The position numbers were made by a program, and so were the translations under genes. Shown here piece by piece: positions 2,062 through 64,000 of a DNA stretch of 64,000 bases (positions within the stretch are counted from its first letter, which is position 1; the number at the start of each line of letters is the position of its first letter). The notes beneath the pieces were generated by a model. The model ran no database searches and was not told where the DNA came from. It was given only the letters and a program-made list of their open reading frames with translations. The DNA comes from Chaetoderma sp. LZ-2023a (Eukaryota; Mollusca; Caudofoveata; Chaetodermatida; Chaetodermatidae). The stretch spans positions 122,312,430-122,376,429 of the forward strand of contig CM067360.1 in assembly GCA_034401795.1 (NCBI GenBank). The letters are read 5' to 3'.

Positions 2062-2466
2062 AATTCACCTTTCCAGAGTACCCACCCATCATATGACGTC
2101 ATAATGAACTGTGTGAGGGGTAGAATGACATCATAATGAATGACGTCATGAATGGCGTCGATAAGTACGTCACGAACGCATATTTGAAGACGGTCTATGC
2201 GTTGTTGTACAAATTGTTTGCTTTTACTATTTAAAAAATATTCTGTTGAATATTTTGAAACTAATTTGACTGGGTGCTGTTGTTGCCATAGGCAGGAACA
2301 GCACCCAGTCAAATTAGTTACAAAATATTCAACAGCTTCCCTGCATAATTTTGAAGGAAATTGATAGCTAGGGCATTCGGGGATCGATCAATCCCAACAC
2401 AGCGACGTGTGGGTGGAGCCCTAGCTAGTGATGGGCGGGGCATAGCTAAAAATGGAAAGGTCCGTT
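2062..2466 (+). mobile_element. MITE-A copy 4, flanking the nuclease transposon
   Basis: Complete order: 'cacctttccag' end, 'catatgacgtcat' (about 2,090), 'gatgacatcataatgaatga' region, full core palindrome at about 2,243-2,333 with 'ggcaggaacagcacccag' loop side, 'ggggatcgatcaatccc', 'gatgggcggggcatagct' and the terminal 'ggaaaggtccgtt'. The neighbouring nuclease transposon starts at 2,469, right at the end of this copy. Confidence 0.86.
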
Positions 2467-2468
2467 AT

Positions 2469-2606
2469 TAGTCCAGGAGCTAAAGCTAGGTCAGAATCGT
2501 GACGTAGCACACCCAGTATTCGGAAGGTCTGACACTTGCTGTGGCTTGGGGGACATGTCCCACACATTTTAAGCCCGGTTGTACAAACAAATTGTGGTAG
2601 CGCTAA
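2469..2606. repeat. Left terminal inverted repeat of the nuclease transposon
   Basis: Pairs with 6,881-7,028. Best-conserved parts are the outer end, 'cgtagcacacccagtattc' (2,503-2,521) and the inner 'aaattgtggtagcgctaa'. Most mismatches to the other arm are C/T or G/A, as expected of ageing copies. Confidence 0.8.
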
Positions 2607-2822
2607 TTAGTTATCCTGATTTCTTTGCATAGGGGGTCTAGGCTTTGGCTGTATCCACAGTGCACAACGATATAAGCATGATCGTGTCATAACTCAAAGT
2701 AATATCGTATTAGATTCACCATATATGATATTTAGACGGATATCGACCTAACATATATCCAACATACATTTTGCATGCATATACCAAAGGCGAGGGTGAA
2801 ATGTGAAGGTTATATTTTATGT

Positions 2823-2948
2823 ATGTATACTAACTCCATCAAAGAATCTGTATATCCAGCTGTACCACTGTTGACAAAGCACCCAGGTAATGGTGGTTGT
2901 AATGAGACAGATGGATGTGGTGGTAATCGGTGCGGAAAAACAAATTAA
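2823..2948 (+). other. Short cysteine-containing open frame upstream of the nuclease gene
   Basis: An ATG at 2,823 opens 41 codons ending at TAA 2,946-2,948. The product includes 'GNGGCNETDGCGGNRCGKT', richer in Cys and Gly than chance. It overlaps the start of the first long frame (2,890) in another frame. It could be the original N-terminus of the nuclease protein separated by a third frameshift, or a chance frame. Confidence 0.3.
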
Positions 2949-3825
2949 AATGAATACTACAAAACACATAAGCCTCGCTATGACAATGTGGCATCTTACA
3001 GGTTCCAAACAAGTTGTCATCATTCTGAATCGTATGGGTCATAGCGTTTCCTATGATGATATTGAGGTAGTTGACACTAGTATGGCGCTTGAAGTATTAG
3101 CTCAATCAACACGGTATGGAGTTGTAATACCAACAAACATTGTTCCAAACTCGTTCGTTCAAGTAGCAGCTGATAACAATGATATACTTGAAGAAACCTT
3201 AGACGGTAAACAGACAACTCACTCAACGACAATGGTGATGTTCCAACGAATGCAATTTGGCCCAAGACCAGAGCGTGTCATACATGCTGAACACTCAGTC
3301 AGGAGAAGGGCTTTGACAGCACCAGGTACTGAAAACAGAATTCTTGATTGTGGGGTGTTTGGTAGAAGACCAGTTGTGACCGCGTTCATAGACACTGTCA
3401 AGAAGGATTGGTACCAATGTGATAGCTCAATCCAGGAACAGGCATTCGTCATGGATCTTGCATGGGCCATCGTTCGAATGTGTCCAATAAAATTGTTTGC
3501 CGTAGATCTTGTACCCATGATGACCACAGAAACACAAACAGTCCCTAGTTGGAGTGGATTTAATGCACTTGTATCATGTGCTAACGCACCTTTTACACAA
3601 ATCGGTTACTGTCCAATGATTTCCGGATCACCAACTGAATTCAATACGGTGTATACTGTCATGAAACAAGTTCAAAGAATGATGACAACACTAGGACAGA
3701 ATGACTCGGTCATTACATTCGACTTGGCCATATATGTCAAGGCAAAGGAGATACAGTGGCGATATAAAGAAGAGTTTAGTGACACTGTGATCAGACTGGG
3801 GGGATTCCACATTGCGCTAAACTAA
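2890..3825 (+). pseudogene. Nuclease-transposon protein, N-terminal part
   Basis: An open frame of 311 codons that resembles the N-terminal part of a large uncharacterised protein family common in marine invertebrates; recognisable blocks are 'LTGSKQVVIILNRMGHSVSY' (residues about 36-55), 'AADNNDILEETLDGKQTTHS' and 'LDCGVFGRRP'. The frame is closed by TAA at 3,823-3,825. Translation continues in the same frame beyond it with family-like sequence (LAVIGKMFDDSG...), so the stop is best read as a nonsense mutation and not a natural end. The ATG at 2,890 is only the first in frame: an in-frame stop lies at 2,872, and the true start may be elsewhere (see 2,823). Function of this region is unknown; it has no motif I can assign. 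Confidence 0.75.
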
Positions 3826-3843
3826 TTAGCTGTTATTGGAAAG

Positions 3844-4380
3844 ATGTTTGATGACTCTGGCTTAGAAGATCTCCTCATAGAGGCCAACACATATGGTAGC
3901 AGCACGGCTACTGCTCTACTTAAAGGGAAGTCTTATAATCGAGGAGTGAGGGCTCACAAATTGGTTATGGAAGCGCTGCTGCGATTACAATGGAAGTCTT
4001 TTTCCAAATGGGTTCAACAAAATGGACAACATGAAGACCACATTACTCCAACAGAATTGGAGAGTCTGGATGAGAAAATTAAGATGTGCCGAAGCAGCAT
4101 TGACGACTTAGATGCACTGCAAGAAAATTTCAAAGAGGTGTGTATGTACGTGAATAAATTGCAACAGCTGTTCAAATCCTTTAAAGTTGAGTCAAGCTCG
4201 AAATCACACCTGTTCGCATTTTGGAACTCATATATTCATATGGTAGAGCTGCTGCTTGGATTCATAAGAGCTGAGAGAACTGGAGATTGGCAGGCACACC
4301 TATCTGCTACTGCTGCTATTTCTACAGCATGGACAGAACCAATTATGCAAGATGGCTGCCAATATATCTTGCGGACATGA
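3844..4380 (+). pseudogene. Nuclease-transposon protein, middle part
   Basis: This frame is the in-frame continuation of 2,890-3,825 after one TAA. Residues such as 'GLEDLLIEANTYGSSTATAL' and 'SYNRGVRAHKLVMEALLRLQ' match the same invertebrate family. Family resemblance holds to about 4,308 ('RTGDWQAHLSATAA'), after which this frame runs into unrelated residues and a stop while the family sequence resumes in the frame of 4,287-6,533 ('FYSMDRTNYARWLP'). A one-base-type frameshift is therefore placed at about 4,305-4,325. The ATG at 3,844 is not evidence of a separate start. Confidence 0.75.
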
Positions 4381-6533
4381 AGATGCTTCCAAGTACACAT
4401 CCCCATGTACATGAACAATTCTTGAATGGAAATCATTCCGTAAGTCGCTCAGACCATCCATTCAATCAAGTGTGGACAGATATGGCCTTAGAGCAATCGA
4501 TTAATTTGGATTCCAAAAAGCGAGGTGGTATTATTGGAATAACACAAAAGCCAGGAGCTCTGGAGAGGTGGTTTTTAACTAGCCACGAGAGGGCAGCCAT
4601 AACAACGGTCACAAAGCAAATGTGCGGGTTACAAGATAGTCACATGTTTGGAGTACATAAGGAAATGGGGACTAATCGAATGAACAGGGATGAAACCGAT
4701 GTGCAGAAGATACTTTCGATGTTCTCATCATATATAATGACCAATCCCTTTAATATTGCGGAAAACGACGACAGCGAGTGTCTTCCGCTTGTAAACATTG
4801 CAACTGGCGTGGTATTGCCTAGTGAAATCGCCAAGAGACTTGTTTCAGCCTGTGACATTGGTAAGGAGATTATGGACAATTTTGTTCAGGAGCGGCTGGA
4901 CACTAACACGAGAAGCTTTTGGGACACGTTGCCACACTTAAAGCTTAAAACACTTGCCAGCCTAGCACAGAAGAAAAAACTCAAAACAAATGATGAAAAA
5001 ATTCACAATGTGAGATCTGACCGCGAACTATTTGGTCGATTAATTATTGCCGCAAGGTCCAGAGATGTTGATTTAAAACTAGTGATGACGTATGAACTGT
5101 CTGCTGTTCCACTATCATTGTCACATACGGATGGGACTCTAAGAAAGAATGTGAAAAGTGTTTTGTTAAGTGAACTAGAAAAGGAAGTAAATGTTGATGG
5201 ACGGCTTCCACCTGTGGACAAGACAGGCGCAACAGCTTATGTAGTAGATGGCATGGCAATTGTGCAAATGGTTAAAACTGGAGGTACGTCTACATTTGGA
5301 GAATTGGCTGATAAATACTGGCACATCTTTACAGTTCCACTGAATCAAGAAGACTGCAACAGAGTAGATATAGTTTTTGACAGATATGATAGACTGGAAT
5401 CTCTCAAAGCGGAAGAGCGGCTAAAACGTGGGTCATCAACAGCATTGGAAGTAAAGATTGCTGGAGAAAATACTCCCGTTCCAAAGCAATGGGCCAAGTA
5501 CATCAGCAATCCAAGCAACAAAAGTAACCTGGTTGCATTTCTCAGCAAGCGGTGGCGTGATACTGGTCCACATATGCTATCTGCCGACAATTGCGTCATT
5601 CTTGCTGGTGGCTTTAACGATGGAATGGATGGTGTTGTCATTTCAGCGAACAATTCGTCGTATTTGGAAGAACTTCGATCAGATCACGAGGAAGCAGATA
5701 CGCGTATGATGTTGCACGCGCTACACGCTTCAAAAGACCACATGCGTGTTGTTATACAGTCTCCTGATACAGACGTGGCAGTACTTAGTATATATACGTA
5801 TCGTTCGCTTCACTGTTCTGAACTATGGTTCCATACGGGCACAAAGGACAAATTGCGATACATACCAATACATACAGTTGCTCAAGTACTGGGCCCAGCT
5901 ATCTGTCTGTCTTTGCCTGGGTTTCATTCTCTTACAGGTTATGATAGCACTAGTGCATTATTTGGAGTCGCTAAGAGAAAAGCATTCAATCTCTTAAAGT
6001 CATCTGAATGTCATCAGCTTAGCTTAGCCCAACTCGGCGAACATGTTGACTTATCACCGAATACTGCAATTCTATGTGAGAAATTTGTCTGTGAGTTGTA
6101 TACCACCAGGGATGTGGGAAAGACAGCTGATGAAACCCGTTATTGGCTCTTTTGTCAAAAGAGACAAAGAAATGAAAATCTTCCACCTACATCGAATAGT
6201 CTAAAGCATCACACCGAAAGGGCCAATTTTCAAGCTCTTGTTTGGAGACGTTCATTGCAAGCTGTTCAGAATCTTCCATCTCCAAATGGACATGGCTGGA
6301 GTATAGTGGATGGTCTACTCAAGCATGTTCTAATGTCAAAGGATCCTGCTCCATTTGGATTAATTGAACTCACATCATGTAGATGTCAAATGTCTGCCTG
6401 CAAAAGAACAGATCTCTGTCAATGCAAGGCTAACAATCTACTCTGCACTGAAGCATGCCTTTGTATGGGAGGTGAAATGTGTGACAATGTTCAGCATACA
6501 ATTGTCGAAGATGACTTTGACACGGATGAGTAA
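4287..6533 (+). pseudogene. XPG/FEN-like nuclease with Cys-rich tail (Academ-type), C-terminal part
   Basis: 748 codons to the TAA at 6,531-6,533; real homology begins at about residue 12. Order: 'MDRTNYARWLP' (15-25), 'RWFLTSHERAAI' (94-105), then a nuclease region whose acidic motifs follow the FEN1/XPG order: 'VVDGMAIVQ' (319-327), 'IVFDRYDRLESLKAEERLKR' (362-381), 'HEEADTR' (467-473), 'SPDTDVAVL' (492-500), 'LTGYDSTSALFGVAKRKA' (549-566). In FEN1-type enzymes these motifs carry the metal-binding Asp and Glu residues that cut branched DNA. The tail has nine cysteines (698, 700, 705, 711, 713, 720, 724, 726, 732), like a CXC/Tesmin or 'Cys8' zinc module. The role in transposition is inferred. 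An alternative is a host gene of the same invertebrate family, but the flanking inverted repeats argue for a transposon. Confidence 0.8.
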
Positions 6534-6880
6534 CATTCTCTCATTTGCTCACGTGATAAATATGTCCTGCCAGCTTGTGTAGACATGCACTGCATGTCAG
6601 TTAAAAGTTTAATTATGAAAAATGTAGAAAACATGGGCATTGTTGTAGCTAAGGTATTGCTAGTCACAAGAAGACCTAAGTGCCCCAATATGTACAAAGC
6701 AACATACGGGTGTCTTAAACGAGGTTGATTATGTATAAATCTGCGATATACGATAACTCCTTTCCATTTTGGTTAAGATTGTATTGATATAACATGCACT
6801 TAAGTTTGTGAAAAATTTACCATTGTGAAAGTTGTTTGAGAGCTACATTCAACACCTATTGTAAATGGGCTTCTCACGGG
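6534..6880. other. 3' non-coding part of the nuclease transposon
   Basis: AT-rich sequence between the stop codon and the right inverted repeat. I see no further gene. Confidence 0.5.
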
Positions 6881-7028
6881 TTAGTGATACCACAATTTTC
6901 TTGTACAGCACGGCTCAGAATATACCCAAGACATCGGTCTAGCATAATATAGAGACAAACCTTCTGAATACTTGGTGTGCTACGAAACCATTCTTCTAGA
7001 CCCCTTTTGAAAATTGGCTCCCGGACTA
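6881..7028. repeat. Right terminal inverted repeat of the nuclease transposon
   Basis: Complement of 2,469-2,606. The gap-free 97-base match occupies 6,888-6,984; the outermost block ends 'ggctcccggacta' at 7,028, followed by TAT. Between the 97-base block and the outer end this arm is about ten bases longer than the left one. Confidence 0.8.
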
Positions 7029-7031
7029 TAT

Positions 7032-7444: not shown

Positions 7445-7842
7445 CTATGGACCTGTCCAGTTTATCCATCTATCGAATGACGTCACAATCAACTACGTGA
7501 TGTGTAGGATGACGTCATAGTCAATTAAGGCATGAATGACTCGATTTAGTCCGTCTTAAACCTTTAATGGGTCCGACACGTTGTACGAATTGTATGTCTT
7601 TACTATATAATAAACATTCTATTGAATATTTTGAAACTAATTTGACTGGGTGCTGTTGCTGCCTATGGCAGCAACAGCACCCAGTCAAATTAGTTTCAAA
7701 ATATTCAACGGCTAACCTGTATAATTTTCTGGAAATAAATGTCCAGGGAGTTCAGGGATCGATCGATCCCAACATGAGCGAGGTGTGGGTGGGGATTAGC
7801 TAGAAATGGGCGTGGCAAAGCTAAAACTGTAAAGATCCATTT
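7445..7842 (+). mobile_element. MITE-A copy 5, best-preserved
   Basis: Most regular copy in the window. Ends are 'atggacctgtccagttt' and 'aaaactgtaaagatccatt'. It has 'gatgacgtcat' (about 7,508-7,518), a near-perfect core palindrome at about 7,621-7,710 whose arms read 'ttgaatattttgaaacta' with the loop 'gctgcctatggcagc', then 'gggatcgatcgatccc' (7,755-7,770) and 'gatt' plus 'agctagaaatgggcg'. It can serve as the family reference within this window. Confidence 0.92.
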
Positions 7843-8506: not shown

Positions 8507-8607
8507 GATAACGCGGCTTACTGGGCCGATGCTGGACTGATACCGGGCCGATACTGAAAGTATCGGCACGGTATCGGCCCAACATTTGCCCAGTAAGCCG
8601 CGTTATC
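8507..8607. repeat. Short foldback element, hairpin family D copy 1
   Basis: Arms 'gataacgcggcttactgggc' and its exact complement at 8,588-8,607 enclose a second inverted pair ('gggccgatac' / 'gtatcggc'). The whole 101 bp can fold on itself. A relative of 48 bp lies at 60,474-60,521. Confidence 0.8.
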
Positions 8608-9530: not shown

Positions 9531-9928
9531 TAATAGACCTTTCTTTTTATCCACCCATCATATTACGTCATAATCAACTGCGTGACGTGTATAATGACAT
9601 CATAATGAATCACATCATTATGACATCATGAATGACGTAGATAAGTACGTCACGAACGCATATTTGAAGACGGACTATGCGTTGCTGTACGAATTGTATC
9701 TCTTTACTATTTAATAAATATTATGTTGAATATTTTGAAACTAATTTGACTGGGCGCAACAGCAGCACTCAGCGAAATTAGTTTCAAAATATTTAACAGC
9801 TTACCTGTATAGTTTTCAGGAAATTTATAGTTAAGTCATTCGGGGATCGATCAATCCCAACACAGTGAAGTGTGGGTGGAGCTTAGCTAGAGGTGAGCGG
9901 TGCATAGCTAAAACTGGAAACGTGCATT
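9531..9928 (+). mobile_element. MITE-A copy 6
   Basis: Starts 'aatagacctttctttttatc', carries 'gatgacatcat'-type CRE-like dyads diverged from TGACGTCA, a core palindrome at about 9,724-9,798 with a shortened loop ('gggcgcaacagcagcactc'), 'ggggatcgatcaatccc' (9,841-9,857) and ends 'aaactggaaacgtgcatt'. Confidence 0.88.
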
Positions 9929-10117: not shown

Positions 10118-10498
10118 ATTTCCATTTTAGCTATGCCCCGCCCATCTCTAGCTAAGCTCCACTCACACTCAGCTCGTGTTGGGATCGATCGATTTCTAAA
10201 CCCCCTGACTATCAATTTCCAGAAAACTATACAGGTTAGCTATTGAATATTTTGAAACTAATTTGACTGGACGCTGTTGCTGCCTATGCGTCCAGTCAAC
10301 TTAGTTTCAAAATATTCAACAGCATGCTTATTAAATAGTAGAGACATACAATTCGTACAACGTGTCGGACTATTAAGAGTTAAAGACGGGCCAACCAGAA
10401 TCATTTATGACGTAATGATCATGACGTCATCCTACACGCCACTTAGCTGATTACGATGTCATATGACGTCAGAAGATAGATGGACACTCTGGAAAATT
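10118..10498 (-). mobile_element. MITE-A copy 7
   Basis: Reverse orientation: 'ttttagctatgccccgccca' end, 'gggatcgatcgatt' (about 10,180), core palindrome at about 10,240-10,322 in which the arm 'ggacgctgttgctgcctatg' lost the matching 'gcagcaac' side, then 'gatcatgacgtcatcctaca' and 'gatgtcatatgacgtcaga'. Copy 8 begins at its right edge in the opposite orientation. Confidence 0.88.
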
Positions 10499-10804
10499 TT
10501 CAATGGACCTTTTCAAGTTTATCCATCGATAATATGACGTTATATGAGGCCATAGCCAACTACGTGACGTGTATGCTGACGTCATAATCATGACGTCATT
10601 AATGATTCGGAATTGTCCGTCTTTAACGCTTAATAGTCCGACGCGTTGTACGAATTGTGTCTTTACTATTAAAAAGAGAGAGAGAGAGAGAGACAGAGAG
10701 AGAGAGAGGGAGGGAGGGAGGGAGGGAGAGAGAGAGAGAGAGAGGGAGGGAGGGAGGGAGGGAGGGAGAGAGAGAGAGAGAGAGAGGGAGGGAGAGAGAG
10801 AGGG

Positions 10805-10835
<31 letters not shown>

Positions 10836-10838
10836 GGG

Positions 10839-10869
<31 letters not shown>

Positions 10870-10959
10870 GAGGGAGAGAGAGGGAGAGAGAGGGAGAGAG
10901 AGGGGGAGAGGGGGAGGGGGAGGGGGAGGGAGGGAGGGAGAGGGAGAGTGAGAGAGCGA

Positions 10960-11018
<59 letters not shown>

Positions 11019-11052
11019 GTGGGCCATAGGTAAAACTGGAAAGGTCCATTCG
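10499..11052 (+). mobile_element. MITE-A copy 8 with its core replaced by a GA microsatellite
   Basis: The left part is normal: 'caatggaccttttcaagttt', 'gctgacgtcataatcatgac', 'agtccgacgcgttgtacgaa', 'gtctttactatta'. Where the core palindrome and ATCGAT segment should follow, there is about 340 bp of (GA)n/(GGGA)n. The sequence then resumes with the normal MITE-A right end ('gatgggtgggccataggt', 'ctggaaaggtccatt'). Confidence 0.86.
10674..11015. repeat. (GA)n / (GGGA)n microsatellite
   Basis: About 342 bp of purine-only sequence on the plus strand, mixing GA and GGGA units, with single c interruptions at about 10,693 and 10,958. Open frames across it on both strands (Arg-Glu or Ser-Leu repeats) are artefacts of the repeat. 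Confidence 0.97.
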
Positions 11053-11559
11053 CTGACCTGTTGGTTTCAGTAGAGCTGTTCCTACGTTATTAATCAATGT
11101 AGGCCATAGCTTGATAAAACTTGGGATGGATATTCTTTGGGTAGGCCCTAACTCCTCGCATCATCACAGAGCCCAATTTTCGATTCACTGCCCTAATGGA
11201 TTTTAGTCATACATATTTTAATCGCTACTCCTCCGTTATTGGTGAGTGGATTGAGATATTAGTATGGCTCTTTAGGGAGACTTCACTGGCAATTCACTGG
11301 CGTGATGACGTTTACTAAGGCACTCCACCTTTAAATTTTAAAATCACTACTTCACCATTCTTGATGAACGGATCTCGATAAAACTTGGGAAGGCTATTCT
11401 ATTTCCAGGATTTTATTGCTCACTCTTATTTATTTTCGAATTGTCACGCTTGATCAATTTGCGAAATCCAAGATGATCGCCAACAATCAGAAAGAAATTT
11501 ATCTAAAATCATAAAGTGGTATCTATACTAATAAAGATCTAAACTTCGTAGAAGCAGTC
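11053..11559. repeat. Diverged dispersed repeat, two or three partial units
   Basis: 'cttgataaaacttgggatgg' (11,111) and 'ctcgataaaacttgggaagg' (11,374) are repeats of the same unit, also related to 9,929-10,117. No gene is seen. Confidence 0.45.
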
Positions 11560-24639: not shown

Positions 24640-25790
24640 GGACACAGGACAATCATCCACTAATCACATGAGGTTACATGTGTTTCGATCCAAAAGATCA
24701 TCTGAGGCTCAGCTTATCATCACAGTGGATGATCTCACGAAATGTCTAGACCAACGGAAACAAGTTGATGTAGCAGTGCTGGACTTCACCAAAGCGTTTG
24801 ATAAGGTGCCACACAAGCGACTACTCTCAAACCCCACCACTATGGCATACACGGAGACGTCCTTCGCTGGGTCGAGGACTTCTTCACCGACAGGCACCAA
24901 AGAGTAATCCCTAATGGACAATCATCCAACTCTATAGAGGTACTGTCTGGTGTTCCACAAGGCTCAGTATTAGGACCGATTCTCTTCTTAGTCTTCATCA
25001 GTGATATCGCCGATGACATAAGTTCAAAAATCAGACTTCGCAGACGACTGTCTTCTCTACAGCACCATCGAATTCAGTGTGAAGACCAACAGATTCTGCA
25101 AAAATACCTAGACACACTTATGTCATGGATTGACACCTGCCGAAAAGAGTTCAATGTAGCAAAGTGCAACATCCTGAAAGTCACCCAGCGTAGATCCAGC
25201 TACCGTACCCACTACGCAATGAAAGATCAGATCCTAAGAGACCATATCAAACCCATACCTTGGAGTAGAGTTGGCCAATAACTTAAAATGGAACAAACAT
25301 ATCTCCAAATTTACAAGCTCAGCTCATGGAGTTCTTGGATTCCTCAACAGAAACCTTCGTGGGTGCCCTCAATTAGTAAAGGAGCGGGATTACTAGACAA
25401 AACTGGAATGCAGCTCTACAGTTTGGGACCCACCAAGAAAAGATCTATGCCAATCCATCGAGGCTGTCCAGAGGAAAGCATCAAGATTTGTGCTAGCTCG
25501 ACCTGTCTACAAATATCCAAGACAGAGTATTACCAACATGCTAACACGCCTAGGATGGGAGACACTCGCACAGAGAAGAAAAACAAATGTGATACTCATG
25601 TACAAAATTCTAAATGGCCATGTAGCAATTCCACTCGAATACCATCCTCAGAAAGCATCGATATCCACCACCAGGCGGAGTCACTCACAAAAGCTACAGA
25701 CAATCCAGACTAGCATCCAACAACACTTTTATTCCAAGAACTGTGCCGATCTGGAATGGCCTGCCTGACAGCATCATCTCAGCACCGGAT
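24640..25790 (+). pseudogene. LINE RT and C-terminus, plus strand
   Basis: Motifs: 'DVAVLDFTKAFDKVPHKRLL' (24,769-24,828), 'VLSGVPQGSVLGPILFLVFI' (about 24,940-25,000), 'FADDCLLYS' (about 25,037-25,063, in a shifted frame), 'VQRKASRFVLARPVYKYP' (about 25,467-25,520), 'LGWETLAQRRKTNVILMYKI' and 'PIWNGLPDSII' at the end. At least three frameshifts. The 5' part is missing. Confidence 0.83.
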
Positions 25791-26580: not shown

Positions 26581-27010
26581 AAAATCCTCACCGAGCACAA
26601 CAGTACCTGCATCTAATCTTAATATATTTGATGTTGCTGGACAAATAAAAGAAATCCAAAAGAGTCTTGAATCACTGAGTTGTCAAGTGAAGAATCTTCA
26701 ATCCAACCCTCACCATGATGTAGAGTGTAATAATACATTCATAACTCCATATATCAAAGATGTCTCTCCACCAACTTACAGACCGATACCAGTTCTAACC
26801 AGGCAAAGGCGACAGTTAAATTCAATAGACAGCAGTGTAGCAACTTCACAATCCTATCAAGCAACAACGCAATTTCAAGCTACTGGTAGGCAGACAAACT
26901 GAATATAAAAACAAACCAGCAAACCTATCAACCCACCACAGGGCATTCTCAAATGAGACAGAAATATAATTGTGATAATATGAACTCACAAGCCTAGCAT
27001 CGTCCAGAAA
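26581..27010 (+). pseudogene. CR1-like ORF1, linker region
   Basis: Codon-like sequence continues ('DVAGQIKEIQKSLESLS' near 26,628-26,680, coiled-coil like), broken by stops and shifts. It links the PHD-like part to the esterase part. Confidence 0.5.
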
Positions 27011-27856
27011 ATGTTGAAAAATAAGCAGAAATATAATAACCAGAATACGAACATCACAAAGGCAACAGGTGATGTATCTTACAAGGACGTGACTGCTACA
27101 GCTCAGTATCATTCCGATGTTACTCCAACAAGGGACCAGAGGAAACACGTCTTAATTATAGGGAGCTCAACGTTGAGGAGGCTTAGTGGACGATACATGT
27201 CCAATGACACCATGTACATCAACATTAAAACTCTAAGAGGTTCTCGTATTATCGACATACATGACCACATAGACAGTTATCTTTCTGCAAGCAGTCATGA
27301 TGCAACCGTTATCCACGTCGAAAGTAATGACATTGTGAAGAGTAATTCACATGAAATGGCAAAAGACTACACAGTGCTGCTGCATAGGATCTGTGCTATC
27401 TCACCGCACATACAAATATTCGTATCCTCGCTACTACCTAGACCTCTGAATGCACATGAAAATAGTCTAACATTGGAATTTAACAGCATGCTGTTTAAGC
27501 TATCAGAAGCACAAAATGCAACATTCATAGACAATTCCCAGCTCTTCAATGACCCTAGTGGAACAGTTCACACAGAGCTATTCCATGACCGCATTCATCC
27601 AAATGTCAATGGAACACACTTTTTGTCAGAAAACATTACACACTATTTAAGCTCGATTCTTATAATGTCACAAACTGCGTACATGGCCCCGATGCTACAG
27701 AATGTAGCCAATCATTTCATGAATCCATATTTTCACAATGGGAGGAGCCACCAGAACTACAACCCAAAGAGCTCTTGGGCCAATCAGGCTCCCACCTACC
27801 ACCAATTACAGTACAGATCAACCCAGTACTATCACAATTTTCAAACTGTACAGTAA
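27011..27856 (+). pseudogene. CR1-like ORF1 esterase (SGNH/GDSL) domain
   Basis: 281 codons. Block I 'VLIIGSSTLRRLSG' (residues about 48-61) keeps the nucleophile serine but has Ser where GDS has Asp. Block III is 'HVESND' (about 100-105) where G-x-N-D is usual. Block V 'HDRIHPNVNGTHF' (about 191-203) keeps Asp and His. The fold is an SGNH hydrolase as known in CR1-like LINE ORF1 proteins. Loss of consensus residues suggests an inactive enzyme. The C-terminal 60 residues are Asn/Gln/Tyr-rich. Between this frame and 27,775-28,320 there is an overlap in another frame. Confidence 0.8.
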
Positions 27857-28194: not shown

Positions 28195-28967
28195 AAATCA
28201 ATTAATCAGATTACGATCCTCTATACAAATGCTGACGTCTTTACACGTGGGAGGAAAACCGAACTTCTGCACCTAATACAAGATGACCCACCATATATCA
28301 TAGCTATAGTTGAAGCCTAACCAAAAAAAATACAGAATTCAACCTAGTATAGCAGACTACAATCTAGATGGCTACAGCATTGAGGATAAAAATATTACTA
28401 CTACAATAGAAAGAGGTATCCTCCTATACATAAAGAACACTATCTTCTAAACTATTAAACATTAACCAAAATATTTTCGAAGAATGCATCCTATGCGATA
28501 TACACTGTAAACACGAAACACTGCATTTGGCAGTGTTTTATAGAGGCCCAAACTCTAATAACCAAAACAATAATGAACTCTGTCATATTTTAAAGGAAAT
28601 ACACACCAATAACATGCACTGGCTTATCCTGGGTGACTTTAATATGCCACACATTAATTGGTTAACAAACACATACAACACCTCTAGCTCTAGCCTAGAC
28701 TTTACGTTTAAGTTTATTGAGTCTGTGAGAGACTGCTTCTTACAACAGCTAATTTCAATACCTACTAGAAGGCATGGGTCCGACAAGCTAACAATATTGG
28801 ATTTTGTATTTACTAATTACCCTGACCTGGTGGATAATATTCATACAAATGCGCCACTTGGAAAAAGTGACCATTCCACTATACAGATGAAGATTCGCTT
28901 AAATGGCGAATTTACAACTACAAGTAAACAAGGGTCTGTTACGATAAAGCAGATTATGAAGCTATAA
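28195..28967 (+). pseudogene. CR1-like ORF2 endonuclease domain, broken
   Basis: Starts with 'QITILYTNADVFTRGRKTEL' (about 28,205-28,265) and 'PPYIIAIVEA', the usual opening of LINE APE endonucleases, then stops at 28,318. 'HWLILGDFNMPHINWL' (about 28,620-28,665), 'SDKLTILDFVFTN' and 'LGKSDHSTI' (about 28,858) supply the GDFN and SDH catalytic motifs in frame 28,527-28,967. Belongs to the same element as 25,743-27,856. Confidence 0.83.
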
Positions 28968-32540: not shown

Positions 32541-32659
32541 TAGTGGTCTAGGTGAGCGTCACAGGCCCTTGGACCTCTTATTTGTTGGGTAGATGAGTGT
32601 TTCTCTGCCCTGTGCTAACGCTTTAGCGTTTGATTTGTGTAGGAGGTTAGAGGGGTAAC

Positions 32660-34015
32660 CTCTCGCTTTATAAGAGGCATCGCTTTGGATTGGATTCAAA
32701 ATTATTTGACTGACAGGATTCAATGTGTTCAATTTAATGGTGCTATTTCAGGAAACAAGAAATTAGTCTGCGGCGTACCTCAGGGTTCAATCCTTGGACC
32801 CCTGCTGTTCTTACTATACATGAATGATTTACCCAATGCCACTAACCAACTTTCATTAACACTATTTGCAGATGATACCAATGTCTTTGGTAGACATAAG
32901 GATATAAATACTCTATACAAAAATGTAAATAATGAAATGGAAAAAATTATAAATCGGTTCAAAATTAATAAATTATCTCTAAATGTTAACAAAACTAACT
33001 TTATACTATTTACAAGGTCTAGCCAACCTGAAGAAGCTGCTCTCCCAAAACTTTACATAGACAATCAAGAAATAGAGGAGGCCGAGTATGTTAAATTCCT
33101 AGGAGTCTATTTGGACAAACATTTAATCTGGGAGAAGCACATAGAGATAATCACATCCAAGGTAGCAAGGAATATTGGTATCATGCGCAGGCTCAAGTCA
33201 AATCTTCCATCTCATATCTTAACAACTTTGTATAACACACTGATACTTCCACACATAACCTACTGCAATGCTATCTGGAGCAATACATATCAAAATAAAC
33301 TTAAAAAACTAAAATCACTACAAAAGCAATCTATCAAACTATTTTCGCAAACAGCAGGGGGACAAGCCACCTTCAAAAGTAACAAAATCATAAAACTCGA
33401 AGACATCGGAAGGGTTCAATTGTATGCAATTCTAAAGGACTACCACAATGGCAACCTACCCTCATCTCTATCCAATCTTTTTTCAATAAATGCAGACATA
33501 CATACGCACAACACAAGAACAAGTTCCAACCTACATGTCACATACCACCGAACAGAGGCATCTACACGAACACCATCCCACCAAGCAATACAATTATGGA
33601 ATAATACAGATACAGACATATGCACACAAATTCTCACGTTATCATCCAAGAAATTAATCAAAAACATAATTATTGACAACTACTAGAAACCACACCACTA
33701 ACCACCACCACCATGGCCATTACACAGCACAGCTCTGGAACGACGTGGCATGCTTCCAGAGCGAACTGAGGTGTCCTGTTGGGCATTCTGGGCACGGTGA
33801 TGGACGACATTGCTTCCCAAAGAGGCGGTGCCTTCCAATCCGATTGTGCTCAGCGGTGCACTTCTCACTAATTAACATGTTAACTTACTGTCTTGACCTG
33901 GAGGCATGCCAACTTCTTTTAGCATTATTAATCCTATTATGAGCTGTGCTGCAGTCTAACTATTCACGGCACCTGTTCACCGGAACAGAACATCAAATGT
34001 AAAACTGCATAGGAG

Positions 34016-39197: not shown

Positions 39198-39803
39198 TTA
39201 TTCCATCTGCTGTTCTGTGATTTCAGATTTATCAGCACTAGTATCGGATACACCAGCTTCTACGTTCATTTCTACATTCCCGTCTAAGCCTTTCTTTCCT
39301 TTCTTCTTTTTCTTGCCAGGTTTCTGCTTGGGCGGGTATATTGCGTAGTATGTGTCACTATCCCATCCTTGTCGACCGAGTGGTGACGAGAAAGCAAAAT
39401 CACCGGGTACTTCTGGGTTCATGTAGTAATCTTGCTGAAATTGCTCGTCACCTCCGGAGACATTATAGCCCGAATAATTGTACTCGTAACCAGACTGAGC
39501 ATAGTGTGAATTCTGATTACTGAGTGTGTACCGATACCGCTGGTTGCCCCAGTTAGCTTTCCTGCGTTCCTGACGTCTCTGTTCAAGCTCAAGGTCCTTA
39601 GCTTCCTTTTTCGCTTTTTTCAGCTTCACCTTCTCAATATGATCAGCAAAGTTTGTATAAGTTTCCGGCTTTTCCTTTAATATAACCTCAGGGACTTGTA
39701 TCGAAAGAATCTCTGGCACCATGTATGATTTGAGCCAGACAACAAGCGGTGTCGTGCCCAGTGTATAATGTGCACGTTTATGGTAGAACAGCAGGCCATC
39801 AAT
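39198..39803 (-). CDS. SNUPN: SNUPN terminal coding exon
   Basis: Begins after 'ttcttctgcag' and runs 201 codons to TAA (39,200-39,198). The first part, '[20 protein letters not shown]' and '[11 protein letters not shown]', is the conserved end of the cap-binding domain. A Lys/Glu helix follows ('[20 protein letters not shown]'). The last about 110 residues are a Tyr/Gln/Asn/Gly-rich segment, then a basic stretch '[12 protein letters not shown]' and an acidic end. Human snurportin lacks this length here. The basic stretch could be a nuclear or RNA-contact signal, by inference. Open frames on the plus strand here are shadows. Confidence 0.94.
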   Translation of the reverse strand: MDGLLFYHKRAHYTLGTTPLVVWLKSYMVPEILSIQVPEVILKEKPETYTNFADHIEKVKLKKAKKEAKDLELEQRRQERRKANWGNQRYRYTLSNQNSHYAQSGYEYNYSGYNVSGGDEQFQQDYYMNPEVPGDFAFSSPLGRQGWDSDTYYAIYPPKQKPGKKKKKGKKGLDGNVEMNVEAGVSDTSADKSEITEQQME

Positions 39804-42800
39804 CTGCAGAAGAAACACACAGAAAAAACACAATCAACAGAGGACTGACTTACAAATGAATAAAGAGACACTGAACACCAATGCGGAGCAAATCATGGAA
39901 TGTTTTCTACATAGGTGAGGGATGCACAATATTGCAACAGACAATATTGTGATATATAATGCATAATAGGCACTGCACTCCGTTTGTGGAGCCCTTTTTA
40001 TCTTTTCTGCATATCACACATAAATATGTGATAGCTGTAGGTTAATGATGAGTAGTGTTTTGACAATTTCCGGTCAATTTTTCATAAAATCTAAGGTTTT
40101 CACCAAGAAACCTGACCAAGCAAAATTCTGTAACAAGTTCTGAAGCCTACCCCATAGGGTCCTTCCAGCCAAATTAGTTTGAAATCTGTGGTTAATGAGT
40201 AGCATTTAAAAAAAAAATTGATAGGACGACAAACGACAGATGGTCGACATTGGTACCAGTGCCCTGGACCTTTGGAGCCAACATCATTGTGTGATGGCAT
40301 GTAGGCGGCATGTGTCTGGTATGATTAACCAAATATGTGATATAAACAGAAAAATTTAGCTAAACCGGACGACGTGTAGGGCATCGCAATATCTCGTTTT
40401 ACTTCGTAAAGTTGTGGTAAAAATGTGATATATTGTATGAACCCTAAGTAAACTGTAAAAGAAATTGCTTCAACAAGAAATGATTACCGATGGACAGACA
40501 AACAGCTGGAGACAACCATAGGGTGTGTTTTGACGACTAACAATGTCAATAAATCCCGAGTTCCCAATTGTTGCATTTTTATGAAAAATTTAATGAGATG
40601 GTTACAAGAATCATGAATCATGATTCAATCTTGGTTCATGGTCATAGGTTCATAACTTTCAAAACGGTTATGCCCAGTCACGTTTTATAACAACGCAGAC
40701 ATCCATGATTTATGTCACCAAAGTTAATCCCATCGTGAATGCTTAGAGGTTCAGAACATTACGACAAAATCACTGCCATCAAATATTATCATTGTGCCTA
40801 AAAGTTACTTCATGATTATGGTTCCGTAAATTCAGCAACACGGTCCATACTGATCTCTTAAATCCTGTTTTCATTGGCAAAGGAATTGAACAGTTGACTT
40901 AAGGGTATCGGGTATCTAAGGGAATGACAATATCCTACCAGCATATAGACTATACAATAACAAGATGTTTATCATTTACTCACCTTAAACTGAGCCGCCT
41001 CCAGAGCATCGTGAATGCTTGTCTGAGTACAGGGGAAACTTGGCAAGGGAATGAATTTGTTCTGAAAACAAACATATTTAAAACTCATCATTCTGAATAC
41101 CCATGTGATGCATATTTTCTTTAGTAAACAAGTTCCCTGATATGCCTCAACACCATTGCTGCGATGGCATTTTGTTTTCACAATAATTTGGATTTTACTA
41201 ACAAGAGGCCTGTACTGCTCACCTGGAATTATTCGCCACTGGCACAAATGAGCCAAACGAGATGACCACTAGAAAAATTTACCAATCTAATTTCCGTGAA
41301 TGTTTACTCAAGTTTTCTTAAAATTGGCCCGTTTGTTAATAAGTAGTCTTTTATATGTTTTTTTCAGAAAATCCAAAATGGTCACAAAACGCGCCAAATT
41401 TTGATTGATTCAAGACGGACATGTTTTTTCACGTATCAACTTTCATTGGACAAATCTTAACAGCATTTCGACCCTAATCATGTCTGCCAAATTTCGGCCA
41501 GATTCATTCAGCGGTTCTAGAAGTCATTTTCGTGAAAACTAGGTCATCGAAGATGGCCGTCCGAACTATTTGGCCAATCAAGTTGCCTTGAACAAACTTG
41601 GTTCAACTCTTTCTCTAGATCATATTTTATGAGCTTTTAATCGATGCCCCAAGCAGTTTCGGAAAAGATTTTAAAAGATATTTTAAAAAATCGGCTGAAA
41701 TCGAAGATGGCCGCGGGCCAAATTGGCCGATCAGCTCCGTTTGAACAAACTAGAATCTCTTTTGCCCTAAAGATTGTTCCGGCCAAATATAATTGAAATC
41801 GGCCCAGTGGTTCTCGACAAGACATTTTAAATTTCCCATTGCTTTAGTAAGGGAGCTTTTGGCGGGAAAATGATCCAAGATGCCGACAAATCATTTATCC
41901 GACAGTTTGGAAAATGTAAATTTGAGATCAGAATACCCCAAAACTTAGATAAAAATTTGGCCTCAAAATCCATCAAATAACAAAAAAACAATGTATGATT
42001 ACTGTATTCTGCGGCTGTAATAGTAGAAACATCCTATAACTGCAATCAGTCCTTCTTTGCTTTTGCCGACTGTGTCTTGTCCTCAGCCGAAATCCTTAGC
42101 TTCCTCAGGTCCATTCTTGACTTGAGTGTACCGAGTCCTGCATTCTTGAGGTCATTTAGTAGCAGGCTTAGCAGATTTATGCAATGACGTCCTCTCCTGG
42201 CTCCGAGTAGAGCGAATTCCAAAGCTCTCTGTGCTGGTGTGTCTTCTGGCATCCTTAGCGTGGCGACGTATTACACATCTTGTATAGTGCATCATTGGAA
42301 ATTATGCTGTCTGGCCATCGGTGTCCAGTGACGGTGCGTAGGTGTCCACATCATCTGCATATTCCATCTCTAGCGGCATACCCAGTATTGACACTGGGGG
42401 AGGGGGGGGGGGGGGTTGTCTTGTGGAACTTTCCTGCACGGATTTCAATGCAGCAGCAATGTAACAGGTGAAAAACACCGGAGATAGACCATCTCCTTGT
42501 GGGGAGCCGATTGATGTCTCAAGCTCTACAGACTTCACTGACTTGACTCGTACTCTCAGCTTGGTGTCTGCAAGCAGTAGTCTCACTAGTCGTAACTCAT
42601 CTTTATTGCAACTGGCCTGGCGTAGTACCTCTAGGATCTTTGAGCGTTTAATGGTGTCGAAGGCTCGTGACATGTTAATGCCCATTTTGTGGAAATCCCA
42701 GTGTTTGGACATGCCTATCGACACAAACATGCGTTGCGCCCATACATTGTCTACACAGCTGCGTCCACGTTTGAAACCACTTTGACATGATCCGGTGAAG

Positions 42801-45800
42801 TCATCGATCTTGTCTCGGATGTGGCATAGAGTAAGATTGTATAGGATTGTTCATAAAAGCTGAATTAATTAGGTGCGTGACCGGTTTTGAGATAATGTCA
42901 CTTGCATATTTGAACAGTTCATTGCTCATACCATCAGGTCCAGATGCACGTCCATTTTTCAGGGCTTTAAGTGCCTTATCAACTTCTGCTGTTTTAATTG
43001 GTGTTACTAATGGCCTGGGGTCTCCTGAGAATGGGTGCAAGTGCTCATCATCTTGGTCAGTGAATTGTTCCTTGCCCATTCTCGAATCGCCTCGGCTTTG
43101 CCCTGGTCAGTCCCCTTCAGAGTTGTGTACAGTGAGTGGTGGTGTATAGTCAGTAACTCGCAGGGCTTGGGCTGCGTGAAACATTTTGTGACAGTCATCT
43201 GTGGCAGTGATTTCATCTGCTTTGGAGTCTGCTTGTTGAATAGCTAGTTATTTTAAGCGTTCGCTAATGTGGCGCACAATGTTATTGCGCTCCCGGCGTA
43301 GTTTGGTGCGGTCTTCACTTTGGCCACTTTTATAGATGCGCAGCCGTAATGCTTTCTGCCCTGCTAACAGTTTTACTACTAGAGGGTTGTCAGTATACCT
43401 AGTTCGGTTGTTTTTAAGAACACCTATGGTGCTGGTAGCTGATGATTCCATATATTTCAGTATTATGGTTAGTGCTTCGTTTGGATCGGAGCTGACGTCG
43501 ATGTTAGCTATCTGCTCCCCGAGCGCATTTTTGTATGACATTTGAGTGTCAGTATCGCTGATGAGCTTGGGTAGGTTGTAGGTGACTCTACCCTCTTGCC
43601 TGGTATGGCGTTTATACATTAGGTAGAGATCGTTCATCTGAAGGCGTGTAATGACTGGCTTATGGGTCAGAATTGAGGTCTGTGCCTCCATAGGAATGAG
43701 CATTCCAAAGTAGGGGTTATGTTTCTGTCTTGCATAGTATGAAGTCTATTTGGTTGAAGACAGCTATTGTAGCCTTAGAACCTTTTGGGGCTTTGCGATC
43801 AGCAATGTGTCCGGTCCATGTTGTCCGTTGACAGAATGGGTATTTAAAAGCCGTATTTGTGGCAAATAGGCCATCGGAACTAAGAAATGCCACCAGTGTA
43901 AATTTGTATCTCCAATGCTGTTGCGTGTCCCCTCTCCATACGATCTCATGCATAAGCCAAGCCCTGAACCTTTGTCCGTCAAACTCCAATATGGCCACCA
44001 AACATTTTGATAGGCCCACAGAAGCCATCTTTTTGACTGATCACCATTTGGTCAATCAAGTTCTCATGAACAAACTTGGCTTACCTCTTGCTCTAGATGA
44101 TCGTTCATGAGTTTTGAATCGATTCCTCAAGCAGTTTCTGAGATTTTTAAAGACATTTCTAAAAGTTGGCCAAAATTCAAGATAGCCACCGGCCAAATTG
44201 GCCGATCGGCTGTTTGAACAAATTTGGATCTCTATGCCCGAAGATTTATTCCTGGCGAATATAATTGAAATCGGCACAGTGGTTCTTGAGTTGTTTTAAA
44301 AAAAAGTTCACAGACAGACAGACAGAGATAGACAGACCAATGGAAACAAAATCAGAATAGTACAAACATTTTCCCACAAAGACATTTTAGATATGGGGAA
44401 AATATATCAAAACAGGTGATATAAATCACCCCCACAATCACAGCTATCTTAGTGGGATGACATAATCCTACTGGTTTGCTTAGACGCATGGACGCACCGA
44501 CGAAAACACAGAATTTGCACAGATGGACTGACAAATGTTCAGAAAGACAGATGGGCTGAATGACCCATTTGCTTGTGTTGGGATCGATTTATATACTTTG
44601 AGCCTTGAGTTTTCAGAATTCCATTTTCAAGATAATTATACAAGATATTGAATATTTTGAAACTAATTTGACTGGGTGTTGTTGCTGCCTATGGCAGCAA
44701 AAGCTCCTGATTAAATTAGTTTCAACAAAATGTTTATTAAATGGTAAAGATATACAATTTGTACAATTGACAGACTATTCAATGTTCATGACGGAGATAG
44801 AAGTAATTAAATATGCATTATGATTGCCACGTTAGTCTACACCTACATGTGATGTAATTAATTATGCCATCATATACTTGAGTGACAGATCGGGTCCATC
44901 CATTGTCAAGACAGAATATAAACAATTTTTCATTTCTGCTGTATGAGGGGTAATGGTTTAATTAATTTTACAAAGGTCCTGACTGAAACCAATTTTCAAA
45001 ATAGCTTCCTGGGGACTATATTGGATTTCTCATCCATACAAATTTGGTTAGGATTTTGTCATTCTGTCAAAGTGAGAGCGATGGAGGGAGGGAGGCAGGG
45101 AGAGCGAGAAATATATTATGAAGAGTGGGAGGGTGGGCTGCTGAGAGAAAAATGAGCATAATTAAAATTTTAGATAAAATAAAATTGTGTCTAGATCATT
45201 CGATAGTTACCGGGTTCTTCCTTTTAGTTATGACTGTCAATTCTGGAATCTCCTGTATCTTTGAATGCATCCAGTAAAAGCGGAATTCAGTCTGAAAGCA
45301 AAAACATTTCATACTGCAGGCCTTTTACCTACATTTTACATATAAGTCAAATGATAACAATTTGACTGAAAGCTGTCACTTGGTATGTAAGATTTCTTAT
45401 TCATTCTATTGCATTGCCATTCTTAACCGTTTCATTATGCACATGCATATATACGTTGATAAAATTTACTATTGTATTTCACTCAATTTGACTAAATATT
45501 GTGATCAAATTGATAAATTCAAATATATAGTCAATTAGTCATCTATAAAATGTCAAATACAAATACACAATTAGTGTATTTAAATACAAATATGTATTTG
45601 TCCCCAGGTCTGGATACAGCACCCTTTTACAGATTCCTGCAGAAGGATAGTACTGCGAATATGCATAACAGACAATGATACACACCTCACTATCATAAAC
45701 TGGATGTCCACCCCAGCACATGATATCAAGCACATAGTATGTGTTGAGTGCTTCATCATATATGCAGTCAAGTACAGTATAATCTGCAACAAACAAACAA

Positions 45801-48900: not shown

Positions 48901-51900
48901 AGATAACCTTTTTTAGGTTTCACGTCAATCTGCCTAGAACTTTCACAAAATATTTATAAACATAGTCCCAAATCCAAGATCAGATTGGCACCGATAATCA
49001 GCTTCCCTTGAACAATATTCGATCTATATGCTCCAAGGACGATTCCTGGCACATTTAGTTGAAATCATCCCAGATCAAACAGACAGAGAAAAGATCCATT
49101 TGAAAACCTACTACTGAATTTAATGGCTTGGTCATCGCGAGCCAGTCATCCCAGTTGAAAATTTTCATCCAGAAATGTGGTTGCAATGCAACCATGAAGC
49201 GCGATGTTATGACTTTGCAATGAACTATGAAGCTTGACTTCAAACATAAAATAAACATAGGCCTTATTAACAAGAGGCTCAAGGGCCTGTAACCTGGATC
49301 ATTAGGATTTGAACCATTTGCACTTATATACCGGTAGACATGATGGATAATTTTCGAAAAAATCCAAGAATGTTGTTCAAACAAACCTTAGCTCGGATCT
49401 AGGAAACCACTACTGTAATCCCCCCTGATCTTTACTCGATTTGTTAAATGAACATGAATGGGTCGCAAAGGGCGGCGTCTTAGATCAATAGGAATGCCTG
49501 TTGGATTAGTAGGTGGATGAACGAGAATAATAGAAATTAGACCGTTAGACGTCTACCGGTAGACAAACGATAATAAGCTTCATTCAGAATATTTTTTAAA
49601 TCTTTATATTTTATATTAAAATGTTAGAAATAAGATTTAAAAAATCGATCGGGTTAGCTAGCTGATTATATTGATAAAATAGCTTAGACTAGCTATAGCT
49701 GATTATATTGATAAAATAGCTTGGACTAGCTATAGCTGATTATATTGATAAAATAGCTTGGACTAGCTATAGCTGATTATATTGATAAAATAGCTTGGAC
49801 TAGCTAGCTGATTATATTGGTAAAATAGCTTGGACATTTTTAAATCTTATACATTCTAATAGTATAAACAGTGTCCATTTTAGAATTATATATTTTATAC
49901 TTTGTAGCAAGCCTATAGGATGAAATGTGTTAGCTTCATGCCTTCAGTGGCGGTTCGCTTTGATGTATAGTACAGACTGTCAAAATTAATCATAACCGAT
50001 CAGACAGTCAGATTTACTGGAAATGCAGATCTAGTGCGTGTTCAACTGGCCAACTATATATAATTGACCTGATTATTTGTCAGTCGAAAATAGTGCATTC
50101 AACTGGAAAAGTCGCCGTTAGTTAACTATATTTGCCTAGTCAAACGTGTCTTTAGACCTATTTCCATCTTAACCAATCAGAATTGAGCTTTGGGAATTCT
50201 ATTTTGCAAATGGTGAATGTTCTTATTACGACATAAATTCGTTAAACGGTTGAATAAAACATCAAGAACGGCATAAAATACGAAGTTAATGCTTGGTGTA
50301 TGTATCACATGTGACTTTTAGATCACCTTAATCCATGCTAGTGGTGATCAGTAATGTCAGATGTTCCGTTTGTGCTATGAGCCATGATTTTCGTAGGGGT
50401 TGAGTTTTCATGGCAATTACTACCAATTTGAAAAAACCCATCTTATCCTAAGGCCCAATCACCTAGACGATATACTGTGATACCGCGCTATTTTCCCAGA
50501 TACCGTTACCATCTACAAAAATCCAATATCACCCAGCTCTACCTGAGATATAAACAGAAAAGTTGAGCTACACAGAAAATGTTAATGTTGAAAAAAACAA
50601 GGTTTGTACGAAGGTCACAGTGACCAATCACCTTTGACCCCAAGGTTATTGTGGGATGCTGTATCATTATAAGGAAGCATGTGCCCAGGTTTGGGCCCAA
50701 AACTGAGACATAAACAGAAAAGTAGAGCCAAACGCAAATTGCCCGCCATCGCCAGTAGCATAGCCAGGTTTTTATGTCAGGGGGAGAGAGGTCTAAAAAG
50801 GTGCCACCCCACTTGAGCGAGGACTAAAAAGGCACCATCCCATATACCAATTAGGGTTCGGGATCTGCTTAAATTTCTTTAATAAAGAGAAAATATCATC
50901 CCATCATCGCCAATTATTTTATTCTACTGAGAAGGTAGCGTGTAGTCTACTATTCTTTGTATTGATGTAGCGTAATTAAAACAAAAAGTCTAAACATAGC
51001 GATGAACAAGCATGACAAGAAGACATTAACAATGTTGTACATTCAAATAGTTCTAATTATCAATGTAGATTAACTTGTTAAAGGTGGCTTGGGAGTTGGG
51101 ATGTCCCGAAACTTGTATGTGTTACGGACATGATTTAGCCGCCACATTTGGGAAGATTGGCTCAGGGGGAGCGAGCAAACCCCCTGCTCCCACCCTGGCT
51201 ATGCTACTGACCGCTGCCACAATTACCGGACAACGTGCATGGTATCGCCATAGCTCGCTAAGTCGAGCTAAAAAGGAACTTACATTTGCCTGCAAATAGA
51301 CATTTTTCAAGGCCACTGCAAAAGCTGCATTTAGCAGTAAAACGTTAATGGATGATGGTCTGCATGCATTGTGAGCTTGATCAATCATGACGCCATAATC
51401 AACTACATCACATGTAGACTGACGTCATAATCAATTACGTCATGAATGACGTGATTAAATCAATTATAAACGCTTAATAGTCTGTCAAATTGTATGAATT
51501 GTATGTCTTTACTATAGGAAGCAACAGCACCCAGTCAAATTAGTTTCAAAATTTCCAACATCGTACCTGTATAGTTTTCTGGAAAGAGATTCAGGGAGTG
51601 CAGGGATCAATCGATCCCAACATGGGCAAAGCATGGGTGGAGCTTAGCTGGAGATGGGCGGGCCATAACTTATACTGAATCATCCATTGCGGTCACCTTT
51701 AGGTCTGTTGTGTGCACCAGGAAGCCGGGATTGAAAGTGGTTGGTTAAGTATCCTCCCTTGTTATATGCCCATGTCTTGCCCTGGAAATATAACATACAA
51801 TTATAACACGTAAATAAATATCAATCTTTTTCACTTTGCAGGCTAAAGAAACAGAATAAAGTACACTACATATGAACCCGGGTGAGAAAGAATATTTAGA

Positions 51901-63293: not shown

Positions 63294-63622
63294 CCAATGG
63301 AGGAATCCAGTCTTAGCTATGCTCTGCCCATCTCTAGCTCAGGTCTACCCACTTCGCCCGTGTTAGGAACACTCATTGAATAATATCAAATGCCCGAAAA
63401 CTATACTGGTAAACTGTTGAATATTTTGAAACTAATTTGACTGGGTGCTGTTGCTACCTATGGCAGCAACAGCGCCAGTCAAATTAGTTTCAAAATATTC
63501 AACAACATGTATATTAAATAGTAGACATACAATTCGTATAACTCAACAGACTATTAAGCATTTATGAGTTACAACTGCCTAAATTGTGCCATTCATGACG
63601 TAATTGATTATGATGACATATG
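63294..63622 (-). mobile_element. MITE-A copy 15
   Basis: 'caatggaggaatccagtctt', 'tagctatgctctgcccatct', decayed ATCGAT segment, full core palindrome 63,415-63,505 ('ctgttgaatattttgaaact', 'gctacctatggcagc'), 'attaaatagtagacatacaa', 'catgacgtaattgattatga'. It runs straight into the 49 bp tandem array. Confidence 0.88.
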
Positions 63623-64000
63623 ACACAGTCAGACAGTCGAACAACGCATAAGAGTGGAATCTATTTATACGACATAGTCAGACAGTTGAACAACACATAA
63701 GAGTGGAATCTATTTATACGACATAGTCAGACAGTTGAACAACACATAAGAGTGGAATCTATTTATACGACATAGTCAGACAGTTGAACAACACATAAGA
63801 GTGGAATCTATTTATACGACATAGTCAGACAGTTGAACAACACATAAGAGTGGAATCTATTTATACGACATAGTCAGACAGTTGAACAACACATAAGAGT
63901 GGAATCTATTTATACGACATAGTCAGACAGTTGAACAACGCATAAGAGTGGAATCTATTTATACGACATAGTCAGACAGTTGAACAACGCATAAGAGTGG
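63623..64000. repeat. 49 bp tandem array running off the window end
   Basis: About 7.7 units, nearly identical: 'acatagtcagacagttgaac', 'aacacataagagtggaatct', 'atttatacg'. The first unit starts at 63,623 and the next at 63,672. The array continues past 64,000. Confidence 0.95.

Follow-up and report, generated by a model that had tools for sequence, protein, structure and literature searches.

The question raised by this locus is what an XPG/FEN1-like nuclease does inside a transposon: whether it cuts DNA itself or only helps a separate transposase domain. The element occupies positions 2469-7028 of the window, the 64-kb stretch of DNA analysed here, and is a decayed copy of an already known kind of animal transposon, Academ. 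Its gene encodes a predicted RNase H-like region with an invariant D-D-E triad, a FEN1/EXO1-like domain with the whole catalytic set and a cysteine tail (Table 1). In the likeliest reading, movement of the DNA is the work of the DDE core, and the XPG domain would be a second, active nuclease that may serve the 5' strand.

Table 1. Features of the element and of the repeats around it (window positions)
Feature	Position	Strand	Basis
Dispersed ~400-base repeat, copies	2067-2466, 7451-7841, 743-1076, 9548-9928, 10119-10462 (-), 51387-51688, 63306-63627 (-), others		
Left target-site duplication, TAT	2466-2468	.	direct reading
Left terminal inverted repeat, tip TAGTCCAGGAGC	2469-2606	+	alignment; blastn (2493-2531 and 2566-2606 against right end)
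Transposase gene, first open piece: start of predicted DDE core (D 3172-3174, D 3721-3723), in-frame stop 3823-3825	2896-3825	+	tblastn, conserved columns
Second open piece: predicted helical insertion of DDE core, frameshift near 4317-4320 at its end	3826-4320	+	tblastn; predicted fold of relatives
Third open piece: end of predicted DDE core (E 4491-4493), linker, XPG/FEN1-like domain, cysteine tail, stop	4317-6533	+	tblastn
XPG/FEN1-like nuclease domain; carboxylate codons start at 5247, 5379, 5691, 5697, 5766, 5772 and 5943, all kept	5151-6284	+	tblastn, conserved columns, PDB profile match to EXO1
Nine-cysteine tail, CXC/Tesmin-like, below Pfam cut-off (E 0.25, 12.1 bits against 23.5)	6378-6482	+	Pfam, count
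Right terminal inverted repeat, tip TAGTCCGGGAGC on minus strand, ending at 7028	6881-7028	-	alignment, blastn
Right target-site duplication, TAT	7029-7031	.	direct reading

The two ends share the tip TAGTCC[A/G]GGAGC and can be aligned over about 140 bases with small gaps. The local alignment score was 44; 500 shuffles averaged 11.4 and never exceeded 18. In a control of 455 random pairs of window segments the mean was 12.9; three pairs scored 45, 45 and 56 and are taken to be other repeats of the window. A gap-free match of 97 bases with 66 identities, counted by eye in the preliminary description, proved exact (2503-2599 against 6984-6888; shuffle maximum 44, n=100). The TAT triplets reported there are indeed present 5' of 2469 and 3' of 7028, a three-base match that in a single copy is weak evidence alone. 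The tip sequence was absent elsewhere in the 64-kb window, and a blastn search of the whole element against the window (E 0.001) matched the element and its own repeats only.

A second set of ends was found on a contig of a mussel-symbiont assembly (L002), which for that reason is probably host DNA. On it, the end of a related gene is enclosed by inverted repeats that have the tips TAGTAGGGTGCCC and are flanked on either side by TTA; their alignment score of 45 compares with at most 19 in 200 shuffles. Since the protein is 34% identical to P0001, TAG tips and 3-bp duplications are common to two distant elements. On another contig (L001), from a Planctomycetota MAG, terminal inverted repeats were not found (score 20; mean 18.5 and maximum 26 in 100 shuffles) and the open reading frame leaves the contig.

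Relatives of the gene are numerous. The third open piece retrieved 295 proteins at E <= 0.001 (of which the best 120 are listed) and the core of P0173 at least 120, both counts being lower bounds because these searches scored only candidates sharing most words; P0042 as query retrieved 69. From 295 proteins with ids, 108 homologs were picked, mostly by length, and aligned with the three window pieces (alignment A2). Where the domain set is complete, a relative consists of one open reading frame of roughly 1,540-1,760 residues. Relatives can be aligned from window position 2896 (P0042) or 2869 (P0037) through 6530, and P0002 is a second copy or allele of the window gene (97%).

The window copy is dead and N-terminally shortened. 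It is damaged by one stop and one frameshift, and residues 1-403 of P0042 had no match in the window (tblastn, E 10). Because the match to P0042 begins at residue 404, about 400 N-terminal residues are missing, a truncation that had gone unnoticed in the preliminary description. In full-length relatives this part contains two CCHC-like Cys/His motifs, read by eye. All ten catalytic residues are kept despite the decay, which suggests that the copy died fairly recently. After the last XPG aspartate (5934-5984) a motif has drifted, reading TGYDSTSALFGVAKRKA instead of the TGCDSTSALCGIGKKKA of the close relative P0001; judged from this comparison, the drift is a sign of decay.

Some relatives are annotated as host proteins, and the gene might accordingly be thought a domesticated one of Academ origin that lies between repeats by chance. 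We regard this as highly improbable: the gene sits tightly between the inverted repeats and TAT, and a stop, a frameshift and a truncation have disabled this copy. Moreover, in some genomes the relatives bear several locus names. Among the matches listed there were at least ten such names in Actinostola, two pairs of which are numbered so closely that they may be fragments of a single copy, and at least four in Nucella. The relatives therefore resemble copies of a transposon more than single host genes, in line with the earlier suggestion that these 'uncharacterised' invertebrate proteins may be Academ-derived.

The upstream half of the gene, which had been overlooked in the preliminary description, is predicted to form a DDE/D transposase core of the RNase H-like type. 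The predicted fold of relatives has its strands and helices in the order known from RNase H, and the last helix is preceded by a helical insertion. The D-D-E triad was invariant in 99/99 rows of A2 with letters at all three columns (nine gapped rows being excluded). The nine best rows of the VIA-align comparison belonged to four kinds of DDE enzyme, Hermes, HIV integrase, ISCth4 and RAG1; for HIV integrase 127 residues were superposed at 3.4 A (model 53-536 against 57-194), a range spanning the three acidic residues. RNase H-like domains of Prp8 followed after the top nine, and Transib appeared at rank 20. The Prp8 rows count against the DDE reading. Foldseek's own list for the DDE region held no significant matches.

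The Pfam family DUF6589 ('unknown function') overlaps the putative DDE region in P0179, P0181, P0192, P0263, P0279, P0284, P0292 and P0295, i.e. in 8 of the 12 homologs scanned, seven having been picked for an existing label in the search lists and P0179 and P0263 lying below the cut-off. The DUF6589 stretch reaches the glutamate in P0181, P0192, P0263, P0279, P0284 and P0295 and the second aspartate in P0263, P0279 and P0295. DUF6589, of which the open-licence literature searched made no mention, thus gains a likely identity as part of the DDE transposase core.

The five acidic motifs of FEN1/XPG nucleases noted previously are present in order in the window copy. The domain matches FEN1, EXO1 and XPG in fold and in the order of the seven catalytic carboxylates; it differs from them in being part of a transposon protein, where it follows a DDE-like core, and identity in the structural alignments was 9-15%. 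In a phmmer search of the PDB the third window piece alone gave matches at E 0.45 and 0.58 only. All seven carboxylates were found in 103 of the 105 A2 rows with letters at all seven positions, P0188 and P0295 having E for the first D; three gapped rows were excluded, among them P0184, in which one of these positions is occupied by S. Columns conserved to at least 98% numbered 30 among 980 well-filled ones and included all ten catalytic positions.

These data bear on two other roles for the XPG domain. It could be the real transposase nuclease and make all cuts, with the RNase H-like domain only binding or organising the ends. Its catalytic set is conserved equally with the DDE set, and its fold match is far stronger. 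We nevertheless hold this to be unlikely, as the D-D-E triad is invariant in every homolog with letters there, the topology and the best structural neighbours of the RNase H-like region are those of strand-transfer enzymes, and strand joining is not known from XPG-family nucleases. The domain could also be catalytically dead or a pure DNA-binding helper. This proposal has no support of its own beyond the fact that some transposases have captured binding domains, and we judge it very unlikely: the seven carboxylates, together with two invariant basic residues, have been kept at a mean pairwise identity in the XPG region of 36%, down to 19% (1,442 of 1,500 sampled pairs), which is more than a pure binding role would require. 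The uncertainty expressed in the preliminary description, whether the XPG domain cuts or helps a separate transposase, is answered in part: the protein has a DDE-like core that is separate and conserved, and its XPG domain retains every catalytic residue.

The nuclease of AcademX elements is described as being of the XPG type and paired with a Cys8 module. According to PMC10045372, AcademX has a nuclease and 3-4 bp duplications and AcademH a helicase and 9-10 bp duplications, the difference in length being linked to helicase versus nuclease; PMC10294476 places Academ among the DDE/D superfamilies. The element in the window has the XPG/FEN1-like domain, a C-terminal module of the Cys8 type (with nine cysteines here), terminal inverted repeats and a 3-bp duplication (TAT here and TTA in L002, one copy each), so that the identification as Academ stands and fits AcademX. 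The invariant triad, the topology and the VIA-align rows are consistent with a DDE/D core as well. Pfam found no family above the cut-off, and no helicase family, in the three window pieces and the full-length relatives P0121, P0128 and P0173. AcademH belongs to the same superfamily but differs in its helicase and its longer duplication. From AcademX the window copy differs in being dead and in lacking its N-terminus, and among the relatives there is a clade with no cysteine tail. With good confidence we regard the element as a dead, N-terminally shortened AcademX cut-and-paste transposon in which the DDE core would cut and join the 3' ends and the XPG domain would be active on the 5' strand.

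A DDE reaction that frees 3' ends only leaves the donor flank as a 5' branch beside a gap, and FEN1 and XPG relatives cut structures of this type. In the transposition of an intact element, the Cys/His modules may bind DNA or partners, and the DDE core would cleave the 3' ends and link them to target positions staggered by 3 bp. The XPG domain, as an active structure-specific 5' nuclease, would cut the other (5') strand, either at excision or by removing the 5' donor flap after strand transfer; the gap would then be filled and sealed. A similar division of labour is known from Tn7, where a DDE enzyme, TnsB, works with a second nuclease for the other strand, TnsA. TnsA is a protein in its own right, folded like a restriction endonuclease, and the likeness is one of working only, with no membership claimed. 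It is tempting, if rather doubtful, to extend the analogy: the two fused nucleases of Academ might be a eukaryotic parallel to TnsB and TnsA and split the work as these do, the DDE core taking the 3' ends and the FEN1-like domain the 5' flap on the strand-transfer intermediate, and the 3-bp duplication of AcademX as against the 9-10 bp of AcademH might reflect processing by nuclease or helicase.

The nine cysteines described for the CXC-like tail are all present at the end of the open reading frame. The Pfam TCR domain of the Tesmin/TSO1 CXC host genes was not found above the cut-off in the window copy. In a tree built with FastTree from the window and the 108 homologs (109 rows, with P0295 as root) 52 proteins formed one clade (support 0.84; its parent node of 66 has support 1.0). 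Six or more cysteines after the last GW motif occurred in 0/49 clade members with at least 40 residues there, and seven or more in 37/37 of those outside the clade (56 proteins) with at least 70 residues, the other 19 being left out, so length filters and thresholds were unequal on the two sides. Clade members mostly have an acidic C-terminal end instead (by eye). Because tailed lineages surround the clade, a single loss of the tail is the simplest reading, and the Cys module seems dispensable for some XPG-bearing relatives, a large clade apparently doing without it.

At odds with PMC10294476, in which Academ is almost restricted to bivalves among molluscs, relatives are annotated in the gastropod Nucella lapillus (P0204, P0243, P0244 and P0251). 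Others, P0273 and P0289, are annotated in a fish (Eleginops maclovinus) and a firefly (Aquatica leii). Academ-like genes in bacterial-labelled assemblies (L001, L002, P0140, P0173 and P0294; Planctomycetota, mussel symbiont, Thiodiazotropha and Sedimenticola) probably stem from animal DNA that was assigned to symbiont or marine MAGs during binning. One-pattern scans gave 38 matches with 2 relatives in genome contigs, and 19 pattern matches with 0 relatives in viral contigs.

Academ is a little-studied superfamily. Its nuclease is mentioned without explanation in the open-licence literature searched, a scope outside which the key paper, Kojima 2020, lies; the accessible part of PMC12730594 contains no mention of Academ. 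Two predicted cutting domains, the DDE core and the FEN1-like domain, both appear conserved across very distant relatives, and with both catalytic sets placed residue by residue it is directly testable which domain cuts what.

The window also contains, in many places, a dispersed MITE-like repeat of about 400 bases whose centre is a long palindrome and whose ends resemble AATGGACCTTTCC. The Academ element starts three bases after the end of one copy, and the two copies flanking it are unrelated to it. A composite outer structure, assembled from 91-base inverted and 149-base direct repeats at 2245/7619, was rejected, these being copies of the same dispersed repeat. Pieces resembling reverse transcriptase, endonuclease and GDSL proteins (Pfam; 24805-25278 (+), 32643-33683 (+), 42305-42850 (-), 28434-28964 (+) and 26984-27853 (+)) probably belong to LINE-type elements. 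A long (GA)n-type repeat at 10469-11160 produces spurious open frames on both strands, and a hairpin at 8507-8607 has 49-base arms, 88% complementary, around a 3-base loop. Finally, 39201-39833 (-) is a probable exon of the host gene snurportin-1 (m3G-cap-binding domain, Pfam, E 8e-10).
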